A DNA stretch of 64,000 nucleotides from Balneolaceae bacterium (GTDB lineage: Bacteria > Bacteroidota > Rhodothermia > Balneolales > Balneolaceae), in NCBI GenBank assembly GCA_034521445.1, contig JAXHMM010000017.1:62001-126000 (forward strand), written 5' to 3'. This document shows positions 28,610-39,454 of the stretch, one piece after another. The position numbers and the translations under genes were made by a program. Below the pieces are notes generated by a model. That model was given only the letters and a program-made list of their open reading frames with translations. It was not told the origin of the DNA and searched no databases. The stretch's first letter is position 1, and the number at the start of each line of letters is the position of its first letter.

Positions 28610-28834
28610 ATGCCTGGCAAAATGCCCTTCCGGTCGATGTTCGGGCACCAGCCCAAGCCCAAGCGCTTCGACTACGAATACCGCTACTACGACCCCAAAC
28701 AGGAGGAACGCGAGAAGCGCCGGATCAAGATCGATCGGCCCTACAAGAAAACCCACCAGGGGAAGTCCATCGTTCTCTACGCCATCTGCCTGTCCTTTGT
28801 GGTCTGGCTCATATACCAGCTGGGTACCGTCTGA
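28610..28834 (+). CDS. Small conserved-looking membrane protein
   Basis: 74 residues from ATG 28610, or 85 from ATG 28577, whose GGAGG lies inside the coding region rather than before it. A basic, aromatic N-terminal half (PKRFDYEYRYYDPKQEEREKRRIKI) resembles short Bacteroidota proteins of unknown function with the phrase RYYDP. One C-terminal transmembrane helix (VLYAICLSFVVWLIYQLG) ends the protein. Function unknown. It is oriented like mutL, which follows after 97 bp. Confidence 0.65.
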   Translation: MPGKMPFRSMFGHQPKPKRFDYEYRYYDPKQEEREKRRIKIDRPYKKTHQGKSIVLYAICLSFVVWLIYQLGTV

Positions 28835-28885
28835 GAAGAACCCCGGTGCCGCATCTCTTTCTTCTCTATTTTGCCTGCCGTTTTG

Positions 28886-28893
28886 TACCTTTG
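28886..28893 (+). promoter_or_regulatory. Bacteroidota-type -7 element (TACCTTTG) ahead of mutL
   Basis: An exact TAnnTTTG match 39 bp before the proposed TTG start of mutL. It supports a start downstream of 28900, because in-frame codons further upstream would precede the transcription start. Confidence 0.4.
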
Positions 28894-28931
28894 GCAACCA
28901 CGTAAACGACGAACTGCCAAGACCCGCATCC

Positions 28932-30752
28932 TTGAGCGAAGAGACCCCAGCATCGGAGTCCATCATACGCCAGCTCCCCCCCGAAATTTCCAATAAAATT
29001 GCGGCGGGGGAGGTGATCCAGCGTCCCGCCTCAGTGGTCAAGGAACTGATGGATAACGCCATCGACGCGGCGGCGGACCAGATCAAGATCGTGGTGCAGA
29101 ATGCCGGCCGCACGCTCATCCAGGTCATCGACAACGGCTCGGGCATGGGCAGGGAGGACATTCGGCCCTGCTTCGACAGGCATGCCACGTCCAAGATACA
29201 GGACATGGACGACCTGTTCCGCGTGCGCACACTCGGCTTCCGGGGCGAAGCCATGGCCTCTATCGCCTCCGTGTCACAGGTGACGCTGAAGACGCGCCTG
29301 CCGGGACGCGACATGGGCTGGGAGTATGAGATTTGGGGCGGGGAGGAGAAATCCTTCGAGCCCGCAGCGGCTGAACCGGGCACCAGTGTCTCTGTGCAGA
29401 ACCTCTTCTATAACGTGCGGGCCCGCCGGCAGTTTCTGAAGACCGACGCCACCGAGTTTCGCCATATTCTGCGTGCCGTGCAGCAGGCCGCCATCGCCCA
29501 CCCCGACATCGGCTTCACCCTGCTGGCTGACACCGACACCATCTACGAGCTGCCGGCCGAGCAGCCGCGCAAGGAGCGCATCGCCGAGATGTTCGGCAAG
29601 AGCTACCGTGCCAGCCTGCTCTCCTTTGAGGAGGCGACCAGCTATATGACGGTGCGGGGACTGCTGGCCGATCCCAAACTAACCAAGAAGAGCAGGGGAG
29701 AGCAGTTTCTTTTCGTCAACGGACGTCCCTTTCAGCATCGCTGGCTCACCCACACCGTGCTCAGCGTATACGACACGTGGACCGGAGAGAATGAGTATCC
29801 CTTCTACGCGGTCTTTATCGACGTGAACCCGGAGCAGGTGGACGTAAATGTGCACCCGGCCAAGGAGGAAGTGAAATTCGAAGACGAACGCTCGGTCATT
29901 AAGCTGGTGAAATCGGTCGTCAAGAAGGCCCTTCACGAGCGTTTTCAGGTGCCGGAGGTGCCACGCGGTGCAGGGGAGGAGGAACCGGGATCCGGCTTCT
30001 CAGGCGGTTTTGCCTTTGGAGGTCCGACCAACCGAGTGCAGGATTCGGGGGACGGTGGACCCATGCGGCTGCCTTCGCGCATCAATTTCGGGGAGGACGG
30101 CGGGAAGCCATCCTCGCTTCGGGGCGGGAAAGGCGACGACTGGGCCGACCGTCTCTATGGGGGAGAGGAGGAGACAGCCACCCCTACGCAGGGACGGGAA
30201 TTCTGGCAGCTCCACAACAGCTACATCCTCACGCAGACCCGCTCGGGCTTCTGCATGATTGACCAGCACGCCGCCCACAAGCGCATCATCTACGAAAAGG
30301 CCCTCAGCGCTACGGAGGCTTCCCTGCCCAGCACCCAGCAGCTGCTCTTCGCCCAGAATGTGGAGCTCTCGGCCTCCGAATTCGCCCTGCTGGAAGAGCT
30401 GCATCCCATCATCCAGCGCATGGGCTTCAACGTGGAGCTTAAAAGCGGCAATGCCGCCCTTATCAGCGGGGTACCCGCCGATATCGATGTGGGCAACGAG
30501 GGCACCATGCTCACCTCCATGCTGGGACGATACCGGGAGCTGGAGGGCGCCGTGGAGCTGGACGCCCGCCACAAGCTGGCCATTGCCTTCGCCTCACGCA
30601 CCGCCATACGCAAGGGCAAGCGCCTTGCCAACCTCGAGATGGAGAACCTGGTAGACCAGCTTTTTGCCTGCGAGGAGCCCTACCGTGATCCTTTGAAAAA
30701 GCCCACAATCGTGTATCTTCCTCTTGAGGAGATTGAATCGCGCTTTCGCTGA
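28932..30752 (+). CDS. mutL: DNA mismatch repair protein MutL
   Basis: 606 residues. The GHKL ATPase N-terminus is intact: RQLPPEISNKIAAGEVIQRPASVVKELMDNAIDA, DNGSGMGREDIRP, RHATSKI and GFRGEAMASIASVSQV. The C-terminal domain has MIDQHAAHKRIIYE, where endonuclease-type MutL has DQHAxxE. Here the Glu is Lys450. The later CPHGRP metal motif reads DPLKKP (586-591). Endonuclease activity is therefore unlikely, so the protein would act as matchmaker. No ATG or GTG lies near the conserved start. TTG 28932 is my choice and the true start remains uncertain. Confidence 0.9.
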   Translation: MSEETPASESIIRQLPPEISNKIAAGEVIQRPASVVKELMDNAIDAAADQIKIVVQNAGRTLIQVIDNGSGMGREDIRPCFDRHATSKIQDMDDLFRVRTLGFRGEAMASIASVSQVTLKTRLPGRDMGWEYEIWGGEEKSFEPAAAEPGTSVSVQNLFYNVRARRQFLKTDATEFRHILRAVQQAAIAHPDIGFTLLADTDTIYELPAEQPRKERIAEMFGKSYRASLLSFEEATSYMTVRGLLADPKLTKKSRGEQFLFVNGRPFQHRWLTHTVLSVYDTWTGENEYPFYAVFIDVNPEQVDVNVHPAKEEVKFEDERSVIKLVKSVVKKALHERFQVPEVPRGAGEEEPGSGFSGGFAFGGPTNRVQDSGDGGPMRLPSRINFGEDGGKPSSLRGGKGDDWADRLYGGEEETATPTQGREFWQLHNSYILTQTRSGFCMIDQHAAHKRIIYEKALSATEASLPSTQQLLFAQNVELSASEFALLEELHPIIQRMGFNVELKSGNAALISGVPADIDVGNEGTMLTSMLGRYRELEGAVELDARHKLAIAFASRTAIRKGKRLANLEMENLVDQLFACEEPYRDPLKKPTIVYLPLEEIESRFR

Positions 30753-30799: not shown

Positions 30800-31930
30800 A
30801 TGAACATCCTCGCCGTTGAGCCATACTACAGCGGATCCCACAAGGCCTTTCAGAACGGGCTGAAGGAACACTCCCGGCACAACATCATCCCGATCAACAT
30901 GAGCTACAAGGGACGAAAATGGCGCATGCACGGTGATTCGGTGGCTCTGGCCGGCATGGCCGGGGAGGTGGAAGAGGATATCGACCTTCTGCTCGTCAGC
31001 AGCATGACCAACCTGCCTGCGTTTTTGGGACTCACCAACCCGCGTTTCTCGCATACGCCCACGATTATGTACATGCACGAAAATCCTTTCACCCAGCCGG
31101 TGCCTGAAGAGGAGGAGCGCGACACTACCTACTGCTACATCAACTACCTGAGCATGCTTACGGCAGACCGGCTCATCTTCTCCTCACATTTCCACAAGCG
31201 GGATTTTCTGAGAGCGCTGCCAGCTTTCCTGGAGCATTTCCCCGAGGACAAACACTACTATACGAGCGACAAGATTGCCGAAAAAAGCACCGTCATGTAC
31301 CCCGGGCTCAATCTCCGACGTTTTGACCGGCAGCCGGACTCCCGTTCCGACAACGAACACCCGGTAATTGTCTGGAATCAGCGCTGGCAGTTCGACCGCA
31401 ACCCGGCCATGTTTTTCCGCGTGCTCAACCGTCTCAACGACATCGACCTCACCTTTGACCTCATCCTGGCCGGCGACACCCAGCACGAGAAACCCGAGGA
31501 GTTCGAAAAGGCGTGGGCGCGCTACGGTCGCCACATTACCCACTTTGGCTATGTCGAGAACGTGGAGAGCTACAGCCGGCTGCTGCACTCAGGAGATATC
31601 GTGGTCTCCACGGCTACCTACGAGTTTTTCTGTGTGGCCATCATGGAAGCGGTCTACTGCGGCTGCCATCCGCTGGTGCCCAACCGCCTTCACTACCCCG
31701 AGCTCATCCCCGAAAGCCTCCACAAGCCGCTGTTACACGCCCCGGTGCTCTACGACACCGAAGACGACCTGTTCCACTACCTGAAGGACCTGCTGACGGG
31801 GGAGACGCAGCCCCTCCCCAAGCGTTCCCTGCAAAACATCAACGGGCACCTGGACTGGTCGGAGCGCATCCGCAAATTCGACGACCTCTTTGAAGAGACG
31901 CTTTCTATGGAAATCAGACCGTCGGTCTGA
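30800..31930 (+). CDS. DUF3524 glycosyltransferase, tRNA-queuosine alpha-mannosyltransferase homologue
   Basis: 376 residues. The N-terminal DUF3524 domain reads NILAVEPYYSGSHKAFQNG with MYMHENPFTQPVP and IFSSHFHKRDFL. The C-terminal half is a GT-B glycosyltransferase-4-like domain with IVWNQRWQFDRNP, LILAGDT and STATYEFFCVAIMEAVYCGCHPLVP. This is the architecture of QTMAN (animal GTDC1), which adds mannose from GDP-mannose to queuosine-34 of tRNA-Asp. Bacterial members have been little studied. A queuosine-precursor gene (QueE) is present at 38.8 kb. The last eight codons and the stop lie inside a perfect inverted repeat. Confidence 0.82.
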   Translation: MNILAVEPYYSGSHKAFQNGLKEHSRHNIIPINMSYKGRKWRMHGDSVALAGMAGEVEEDIDLLLVSSMTNLPAFLGLTNPRFSHTPTIMYMHENPFTQPVPEEEERDTTYCYINYLSMLTADRLIFSSHFHKRDFLRALPAFLEHFPEDKHYYTSDKIAEKSTVMYPGLNLRRFDRQPDSRSDNEHPVIVWNQRWQFDRNPAMFFRVLNRLNDIDLTFDLILAGDTQHEKPEEFEKAWARYGRHITHFGYVENVESYSRLLHSGDIVVSTATYEFFCVAIMEAVYCGCHPLVPNRLHYPELIPESLHKPLLHAPVLYDTEDDLFHYLKDLLTGETQPLPKRSLQNINGHLDWSERIRKFDDLFEETLSMEIRPSV

Positions 31931-35583: not shown

Positions 35584-36357
35584 ATGAACATCACCTCGTA
35601 CACCCGGGAGCAGATCACCGAAGGACTCAACCGGGCAAGGGATGCCAACAGGGGAGCCGGCAGCGACCACATCCGCGTTCTCTTTTCGCCCATTACCATA
35701 GACGACCAAAACTTTGACCGGGCATGCGACATTTACAGCCGCATCGACCCGGATAACTACGAGACCGTGGTGGTCGTGGAGACGTATGGGGAAGACCTTG
35801 ACAAGCGGCTGCCCATGCCTTCCAATCGCTTTTTCAAGACCCCGCTGGGACAGGTGAAGGCCAACGAGTTCATGCGTGACGAGTTCTGTGACGAAGACGA
35901 CGATTTCTTCATCCACGACGAGGGCTACAGCGAGGATATGAGCCTGTTCCAGCAGCTGATGATGCTGCAGTGCACCTTCGGGGATGACTTCTCCGTGCTC
36001 AGCGTACAGGTGGCCGACCAGGGCCCGGCCATTGTCAAGGAGCTGGCCTGGGTGCTCGAGGAGGTGCTGGCCTCCAGGCGGGCGCTGGTAGTCTTCTGCT
36101 GCGAGCTTGATAACGAGCGCACGGAGGAATTCGAAAAGGTGCGCAGGATGATCGCCTCGAACAACCAGTCGGGACTCCTCAACTACCTGAACAGCGGCGA
36201 ATCGCACATCCGGGGCACCTCGTCCTTTATCGCAGGCGTTTTGGTGGCACATGCCTGGAAGCTGGACATCACCTTTCTGAACGGCGAATACAGCAACAAC
36301 CGCGGCAGTCTGGTGACCGCCTACGGCGACCGCCAAAACGTATTTATACGGCCGTGA
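35584..36357 (+). CDS. Divergent MEMO1-like (AmmeMemoRadiSam B) protein
   Basis: 257 residues. The overall pattern follows MEMO1-type proteins, with a VVVVETYG strand, FFKTPLGQVKANEFM (compare ETPLGEVPVD), a DxxxSxxxQ-like helix DMSLFQQLMMLQ, the FSVLSVQVADQ strand and VVFCCELDNE. The usual metal-site histidines are not seen: the GPHAGY block is absent and the AHxxEHS block reads DEGYSED. It may therefore be a non-catalytic family member. Its TGA overlaps the GTG start of the next gene, so translation is coupled. Family assignment rests on pattern similarity only. Confidence 0.55.
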   Translation: MNITSYTREQITEGLNRARDANRGAGSDHIRVLFSPITIDDQNFDRACDIYSRIDPDNYETVVVVETYGEDLDKRLPMPSNRFFKTPLGQVKANEFMRDEFCDEDDDFFIHDEGYSEDMSLFQQLMMLQCTFGDDFSVLSVQVADQGPAIVKELAWVLEEVLASRRALVVFCCELDNERTEEFEKVRRMIASNNQSGLLNYLNSGESHIRGTSSFIAGVLVAHAWKLDITFLNGEYSNNRGSLVTAYGDRQNVFIRP

Positions 36358-38744: not shown

Positions 38745-38778
38745 GGCCTTCCGCCATGCGGTGGAGGGCCTTCTTTAT
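38745..38778 (+). terminator. Intrinsic terminator after the PPTase-redoxin operon
   Basis: Stem 38745-38755 (GGCCTTCCGCC) pairs with 38760-38770 through 11 positions including two G-U pairs, around the loop ATGC. TTCTTTAT follows. It lies 33 bp past the redoxin stop and 17 bp before queE. Confidence 0.75.
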
Positions 38779-38794
38779 AAATGCGACCTGCACC

Positions 38795-39454
38795 ATGTAC
38801 CGAGCCGAAACCGCCACACCAAATAATGCCGGAACCTCCGGGAGGAAACTCTCGGAGGTGGCGTATCCGGTCATGGAACACTTCCTGACCATACAGGGGG
38901 AGGGCGTGCATACCGGTAAGGCCGCCTACTTCATACGTACGGCGGGCTGCGACGTCAACTGCTGGTGGTGCGACGTGCAGGAGAGCTGGGACGAGGAGAA
39001 GCACCCGCCCGTCACCGTGGGCGAGCTGGTGGAGGCCGCCTCCGAAAGCGGGGCGCCTATGGCTGTGCTCACCGGCGGGGAGCCCCTGTTGCACGATCTG
39101 GGACCGCTCACGCGGGCGCTTCGGCAGGCCGGCCTGCGCACCCATCTCGAGACCAGCGGGTCCTCGCCCATGTCGGGACACGTTGACTGGGTCACCCTCT
39201 CCCCGAAACGCTTCAAGAAGCCGCTGAAGGAGGCCTACGCCTGCGCGGACGAGCTAAAGGTAGTGGTGCTCACCGCCAAGGACCTGGCGTGGGCCGAGTC
39301 GTGCGCCGCCCGCTGCCCCAACAACACGCGCCTGTTACTGCAGCCTGAATGGAGCCGAAGCGAGGAGGCCGTCCCACTAATTTTCGACTATATAAAACAA
39401 CATCCTCAATGGGAAATAAGCCTGCAGACCCACAAATTCATGGGGGTGCGCTGA
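38795..39454 (+). CDS. queE: 7-carboxy-7-deazaguanine synthase (QueE)
   Basis: 219 residues. This radical-SAM enzyme of queuosine biosynthesis turns 6-carboxytetrahydropterin into 7-carboxy-7-deazaguanine. The cluster motif is Cys52-x3-Cys56-x2-Cys59 in RTAGCDVNCWWCDVQ, preceded by the typical FLTIQGEGVHTG. TGGEPLLH is the SAM-binding GGE motif. SPKRFKKP fits the substrate region. ATG 38795 is chosen because a longer frame would begin inside the upstream terminator. No other queuosine precursor gene is nearby except the QTMAN homologue at 30.8 kb. Confidence 0.9.
   Translation: MYRAETATPNNAGTSGRKLSEVAYPVMEHFLTIQGEGVHTGKAAYFIRTAGCDVNCWWCDVQESWDEEKHPPVTVGELVEAASESGAPMAVLTGGEPLLHDLGPLTRALRQAGLRTHLETSGSSPMSGHVDWVTLSPKRFKKPLKEAYACADELKVVVLTAKDLAWAESCAARCPNNTRLLLQPEWSRSEEAVPLIFDYIKQHPQWEISLQTHKFMGVR

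Follow-up and report, generated by a model that had tools for sequence, protein, structure and literature searches.

Can bacteria glycosylate the queuosine (Q) of their tRNA? The question is raised by a gene at 30800..31930 on the forward strand of the window (the whole stretch of 64,000 nucleotides that was analysed), the product of which is placed by its profile in the family of the animal enzyme QTMAN. Animal QTMAN adds alpha-mannose to the allylic hydroxyl of Q in tRNA-Asp (PMC12518689), and a review from 2020 assigned mannosyl-queuosine (manQ) to eukaryotes only, as a modification absent from bacteria (PMC7694415). No activity of a bacterial QTMAN was found in the literature that we searched.

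We favour, with moderate confidence, the reading that the window enzyme glycosylates Q34 in tRNA, whichever the sugar. That it puts mannose on tRNA-Asp specifically is a narrower proposal, which we make tentatively. More specifically, the enzyme would be a QTMAN-family glycosyltransferase (GT-B, retaining) that works in the cytosol and uses a nucleotide sugar as donor to attach a hexose to the cyclopentene-diol of queuosine-34 in Q-tRNA; the acceptor would most likely be tRNA-Asp(GUC), the donor GDP-mannose and the sugar mannose. A salvaged precursor would enter through a transporter and pass via Tgt, QueA and QueG before the window enzyme acts. The acceptor, sugar, linkage, tRNA specificity and decoding role of the window enzyme are all things that we infer. 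The reading of the initial annotation is supported in part: the QTMAN-family architecture and an organism that probably has Q in its tRNA hold up, whereas the step from queE to de novo synthesis does not. A genus that keeps the gene without Tgt speaks against the reading that we favour, and this conflict is the reason why our confidence is no higher.

Family and fold of the window protein

The gene is an intact ORF of 376 aa with an ATG start. A Pfam profile search with its product returned PF12038 (QTMAN_N) with an E-value of 2.4e-45 and 154.8 bits against a cut-off of 25, the whole profile (1-168 of 168) being covered by residues 2-170 (30803..31309, forward strand). Residues 180-304, the GT4 domain, matched PF00534 (Glycos_transf_1) above its cut-off (E 3.3e-9). 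The DUF3524 of the initial annotation is PF12038, whose current name is QTMAN_N, and the QTMAN-like architecture of DUF3524 plus GT-B that was claimed for this gene is confirmed by the two profiles and by the structural model. It is the Pfam profile that assigns the protein to the QTMAN family, and the membership is not new in that Pfam already names the domain. In a search of the organism's own genome with the window protein the single match was the window gene itself.

An alignment of 29 sequences, with members drawn from several phyla, agrees with the domain assignment: S13, W41, R42, H93, N95, P100, R107 and H132 of QTMAN_N are invariant. R195 and R200 in the stretch WNQRWQFDRNP (31382..31399, forward strand) form an R-x4-K/R pattern found in 28 of the 29 sequences, where R195 is invariant and position 200 is K, R or Q; by analogy with the GT4 family they may be the pair that binds the phosphates of the nucleotide sugar. 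The E-x7-E motif of retaining GT4 enzymes is present as E275 FFCVAIM E283 (31622..31648, forward strand), with E/D275 and E283 conserved among the relatives, and its putative catalytic role is carried over from other GT4 enzymes.

The AlphaFold model of the protein is confident (mean pLDDT 89.4, pTM 0.88) and has a full GT-B fold. The nearest structures are retaining GT4 enzymes (7qsg, Z 29.7), including the GDP-mannose enzymes PimB' (3oka, Z 26.3) and PimA (2gej, Z 25.4); MshA, BshA and sucrose-phosphate synthase are also very near in fold. A sequence search of the PDB found no related chain for the window protein, the QTMAN_N part included, and a solved relative for that part was rejected as a candidate, the PDB profile search giving distant GT4 chains only.

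Queuosine supply and distribution of the family

The initial annotation reasoned that QueE, encoded 7 kb away, shows that the organism makes queuosine itself. The gene in question (38756..39454, forward strand) encodes a queE-like radical-SAM protein with rSAM_QueE_Ecoli as best model, at 120 bits and under the cut-off of 200, and with 31% identity to E. coli QueE. De novo synthesis of queuosine requires QueD, QueE, QueC and QueF (PMC11130926). In none of seven genomes of the order (the organism's own and six others) was QueF (PF14489) detected, and QueC (PF06508) gave partial matches only, of about 22-28 bits and inside larger ORFs, so that the argument from QueE does not hold. Moreover, tblastn with E. 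coli QueC and QueF returned nothing in 1.66 Mb of the 3.2 Mb genome; a partner QueC or QueF for the queE-like gene was not detected in this organism.

The genes for making the Q34-tRNA substrate are nevertheless present. Tgt (473 bits) and QueG (347 bits) score above their curated cut-offs, the queuosine precursor transporter TIGR00697 reaches 148 bits against a cut-off of 51 and is encoded about 8 kb from tgt, and QueA is likewise present above cut-off. The presence of these four in a genome where QueC and QueF were undetected suggests that the tRNA of the organism probably carries Q, made from a salvaged precursor. The conclusion that the organism probably has queuosine can therefore be kept, with a different argument behind it. 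The genome also has a ManC-like guanylyltransferase (TIGR01479), which scores 324 bits against a cut-off of 373 because the protein lacks the isomerase domain, and a tRNA-Asp(GUC) with the standard CUGUCAC loop.

Several observations were made alongside. The ManC-like gene (L297:8287-9381) lies about 3 kb from the tRNA-Asp(GUC) gene (L297:12475-12550), which is probably coincidence. A QueD-like (PTPS) match was found in locus L257. Two weak QueC matches on different contigs (G000:C2:44449-44610 and G000:C17:16713-16874) are identical, with the same length and score, which suggests a duplication in this genome or a stretch that was assembled twice. Every sampled genome of the order, the window's included, has two QueA-family genes (here G000:C5:477786-478817, L203, and G000:C6:307717-308709, L213). 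At no fewer than 22 positions that are otherwise invariant, the second copies depart from the QueA of E. coli and of the class; they may therefore have another function.

In a phylum-wide sample of 296 genomes, the QTMAN-family gene was present in all 74 sampled genomes of the class and in 4 of 222 elsewhere in the phylum. The class copies form one clade with a support of 1.0, which argues for an old gene passed on vertically within the class. Of the 36 Balneolaceae (the family of the window organism) in the sample, 16 have a further, more distant copy. The second copies that we examined are of the QDFFG type (e.g. L007, L012, L018, L019) and cluster in the tree with Saprospiraceae sequences, a grouping that makes a gain by transfer probable, giving two paralogues per genome. 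Beyond the phylum sample, over 580 stretches matched in a scan of species genomes; the 80 best come mainly from Saprospiraceae, Balneolaceae, Desulfuromonadales, Marinimicrobia, KSB1 and Chloroflexi. Carriage by phages was rejected: viral contigs were without a relative, and PHROGs gave only a generic glycosyltransferase at 1.5e-5. With a gene kept across one bacterial class and widespread in other phyla, bacterial hexosyl-Q is directly testable. If real, it would offer simple systems in which to study the role of Q glycosylation.

The class-type clade and the other bacterial subfamily are separated by a deep split (support 1.0). Members of the former have E rather than D at the start of E-x7-E and an extra segment, LHKPLLHAP, that is absent from the other bacterial type. 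These differences, together with the two copies in many Balneolaceae, which suggest a divided specificity, would fit a variant of the Q34 reading in which another sugar, another GUN tRNA or the other hydroxyl is used and bacterial hexosyl-Q is not manQ. We consider this variant a real but minor possibility; the sequence does not decide the sugar, and the genome encodes a ManC-like enzyme of GDP-mannose synthesis.

The co-occurrence with Tgt is high. The latter was found in 75 of the 78 carriers of the phylum sample and in 48 of 50 distant carriers, where the two exceptions are small MAGs. Since Tgt (291 of 296) and QueA (295 of 296) are near-universal in the phylum sample, such a comparison has little power, and it lends weak support to a link with queuosine. 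As a separate observation, most of the Desulfuromonadales genomes with a QTMAN homologue (G334-G336, G339-G346) have two Tgt genes.

A halophilic genus without Tgt

According to the initial annotation, a wide occurrence of the gene in genomes lacking all queuosine genes would speak against its reading. With the counts given above this was mostly not what we found, but one halophilic genus, probably Salinibacter, comes partly close to it. The three carriers without Tgt in the phylum sample, as judged by two profiles, all belong to this genus, and neither QueG nor QueF was found in the three. In a wider sample of the taxonomic family to which this genus belongs, seven genomes that are at least 90% complete keep the gene without Tgt (G147, G195, G199, G306, G307, G308 and G314), with QueA remaining; in the same genus G309 and G313 have both the gene and Tgt, and G315 has neither. 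A weak Tgt match in G307 was rejected, as by eye it is a DpdA-like ORF of 410 aa and not a Tgt. This TGT-family ORF (L216:1200-2432, on G307:C90) is flanked by two mutually similar genes that look like the DGQHR/DndB type and has a QueC gene on the same contig; judged by eye, the locus is probably a 7-deazaguanine DNA-modification cluster, here in a halophile that lacks Tgt. That the halophile locus is carried on a plasmid was likewise rejected, no match being found.

The glycosyltransferase gene is under purifying selection in the Tgt-less genus. Its dN/dS is 0.07-0.15 in Tgt-less pairs with ample divergence, which is similar to that of neighbouring genes and two to three times that of most Tgt-bearing pairs (mostly 0.03-0.06, one pair 0.12). 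The dS between Tgt-less copies reaches 1.1-1.3 and therefore, if Tgt was lost in a single ancestral event, the gene has been maintained long after the loss. One or two losses are possible, because G307 and G308 are placed differently in the QueA tree and in the glycosyltransferase tree. Some of the copies have changes at residues that do not vary elsewhere in the family (N193T and D199N in G199; S13T, P100L and D199A in G307/G308), which, taken with the raised dN/dS, fits a partial relaxation. Decay of the gene following the loss of Tgt, as a proof of Q-dependence, was not borne out: changes at class-invariant positions are only slightly raised and the dN/dS is low. A frameshift in one genome (G195) is a one-base difference within a run of C and may be a sequencing error.

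Thus, with Tgt lost and the gene kept under purifying selection, there are two possibilities: the substrate is supplied by some hidden route, or the enzyme does not depend strictly on queuosine. The latter could mean that the acceptor is not queuosine at all and that Tgt is not needed; the enzyme would then act on another tRNA nucleoside or on the product of a QueA-like enzyme, and Q glycosylation would belong to the animal branch only. Besides the persistence of an intact gene in this genus, QueA itself lends something to such a scenario. The QueA proteins of the Tgt-less G147, G195, G199 and G306 (L208, L209, L210 and L211) carry 13 changes at positions that are invariant between E. coli and Tgt-bearing relatives and yet the dN/dS among these four is 0.055-0.065, as if the enzyme had been retasked; a change of function in the QueA of these halophiles is therefore possible. 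A non-queuosine acceptor nevertheless seems unlikely to us, considering that nearly every other carrier tested has Tgt and that the Tgt-less copies show the signs of partial relaxation described above. We consider it slightly less likely still that QueA and the QTMAN homologue can work together without Tgt, be it in making an undescribed glycosylated nucleoside or with the help of an unrecognised tRNA-guanine exchange enzyme. In any case the Tgt-less genus constitutes a natural knock-out, which could show a new substrate or expose the missing enzyme.

Genomic context and comparison with known systems

The genomic context of the gene has a housekeeping character. In the window, mutL (28797..30752, forward strand) ends 47 bp upstream on the same strand, and 12 of the 15 window-type loci in the order have a mutL-family gene as their immediate upstream neighbour; from this recurrence the two genes probably form a housekeeping operon. 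The neighbours differ in other lineages: ispG and proS in some Desulfuromonadales, tyrS and smpB in Marinimicrobia, an alpha/beta hydrolase gene in Saprospiraceae and an FtsW-type gene in Geomonas. No obvious glycan clusters were seen around the QTMAN homologues in the loci examined, and the mostly housekeeping neighbours suit a stand-alone housekeeping enzyme. The queE-bearing segment, to which the initial annotation had attached meaning, is a different matter. Apart from the queE of the window, no que gene was found within about 8 kb at roughly 120 homologous loci; the linkage is not conserved, and we rejected it as functional evidence. Elsewhere in the window, 35584-36357 encodes a MEMO-like protein that scores above the cut-off for 'AmmeMemoRadiSam system protein B' (TIGR04336).

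That the gene encodes an ordinary GT4 enzyme, with an envelope glycan or small metabolite as its target, which happens to share the QTMAN_N domain, would agree with the many acceptors served by enzymes of very near fold, with the many pathways fed by mannose donors and with NCBIfam matches that are weak and to polysaccharide enzymes only (e.g. HpsP, 25.8 bits against a cut-off of 550), but is improbable given a QTMAN_N-specific score far over its cut-off and a copy beside housekeeping genes in every sampled genome of the class, which is not how envelope glycosyltransferases usually behave.

On balance we retain the glycosylation of Q34 as the preferred reading, and three known systems help to place it. 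The GT4 structures (the methylmannose mannosyltransferase 7qsg, PimB' 3oka, PimA 2gej, MshA and BshA) share the GT-B fold with the window protein over residues 1-372 (Z about 25-30, rmsd about 3 A) as well as the E-x7-E motif, but they are only about 12-17% identical to it, do not match its QTMAN_N part by sequence and act on lipids, sugars or small molecules. A second comparison is with GluQRS (YadB), the bacterial glutamyl-Q tRNA(Asp) synthetase, which modifies Q34 of tRNA-Asp and thus the very acceptor proposed for the window enzyme. The two are unrelated, however: GluQRS has an aminoacyl-tRNA synthetase fold and adds glutamate, and no homologue of it was found in 1.66 Mb of the 3.2 Mb genome.

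The closest parallel is animal QTMAN (GTDC1). By Pfam profile it shares with the window protein the complete N-terminal family domain and the C-terminal GT4 domain, and the setting is QTMAN-like in that the genome has genes for Q-tRNA and for a donor sugar. In contrast to the animal enzyme, that of the window is bacterial, its Q would come via the bacterial Tgt, QueA and QueG and not from queuine, and a homologue is retained in a genus without Tgt. The existence of bacterial members of the family also raises the question of where the animal enzyme originated.
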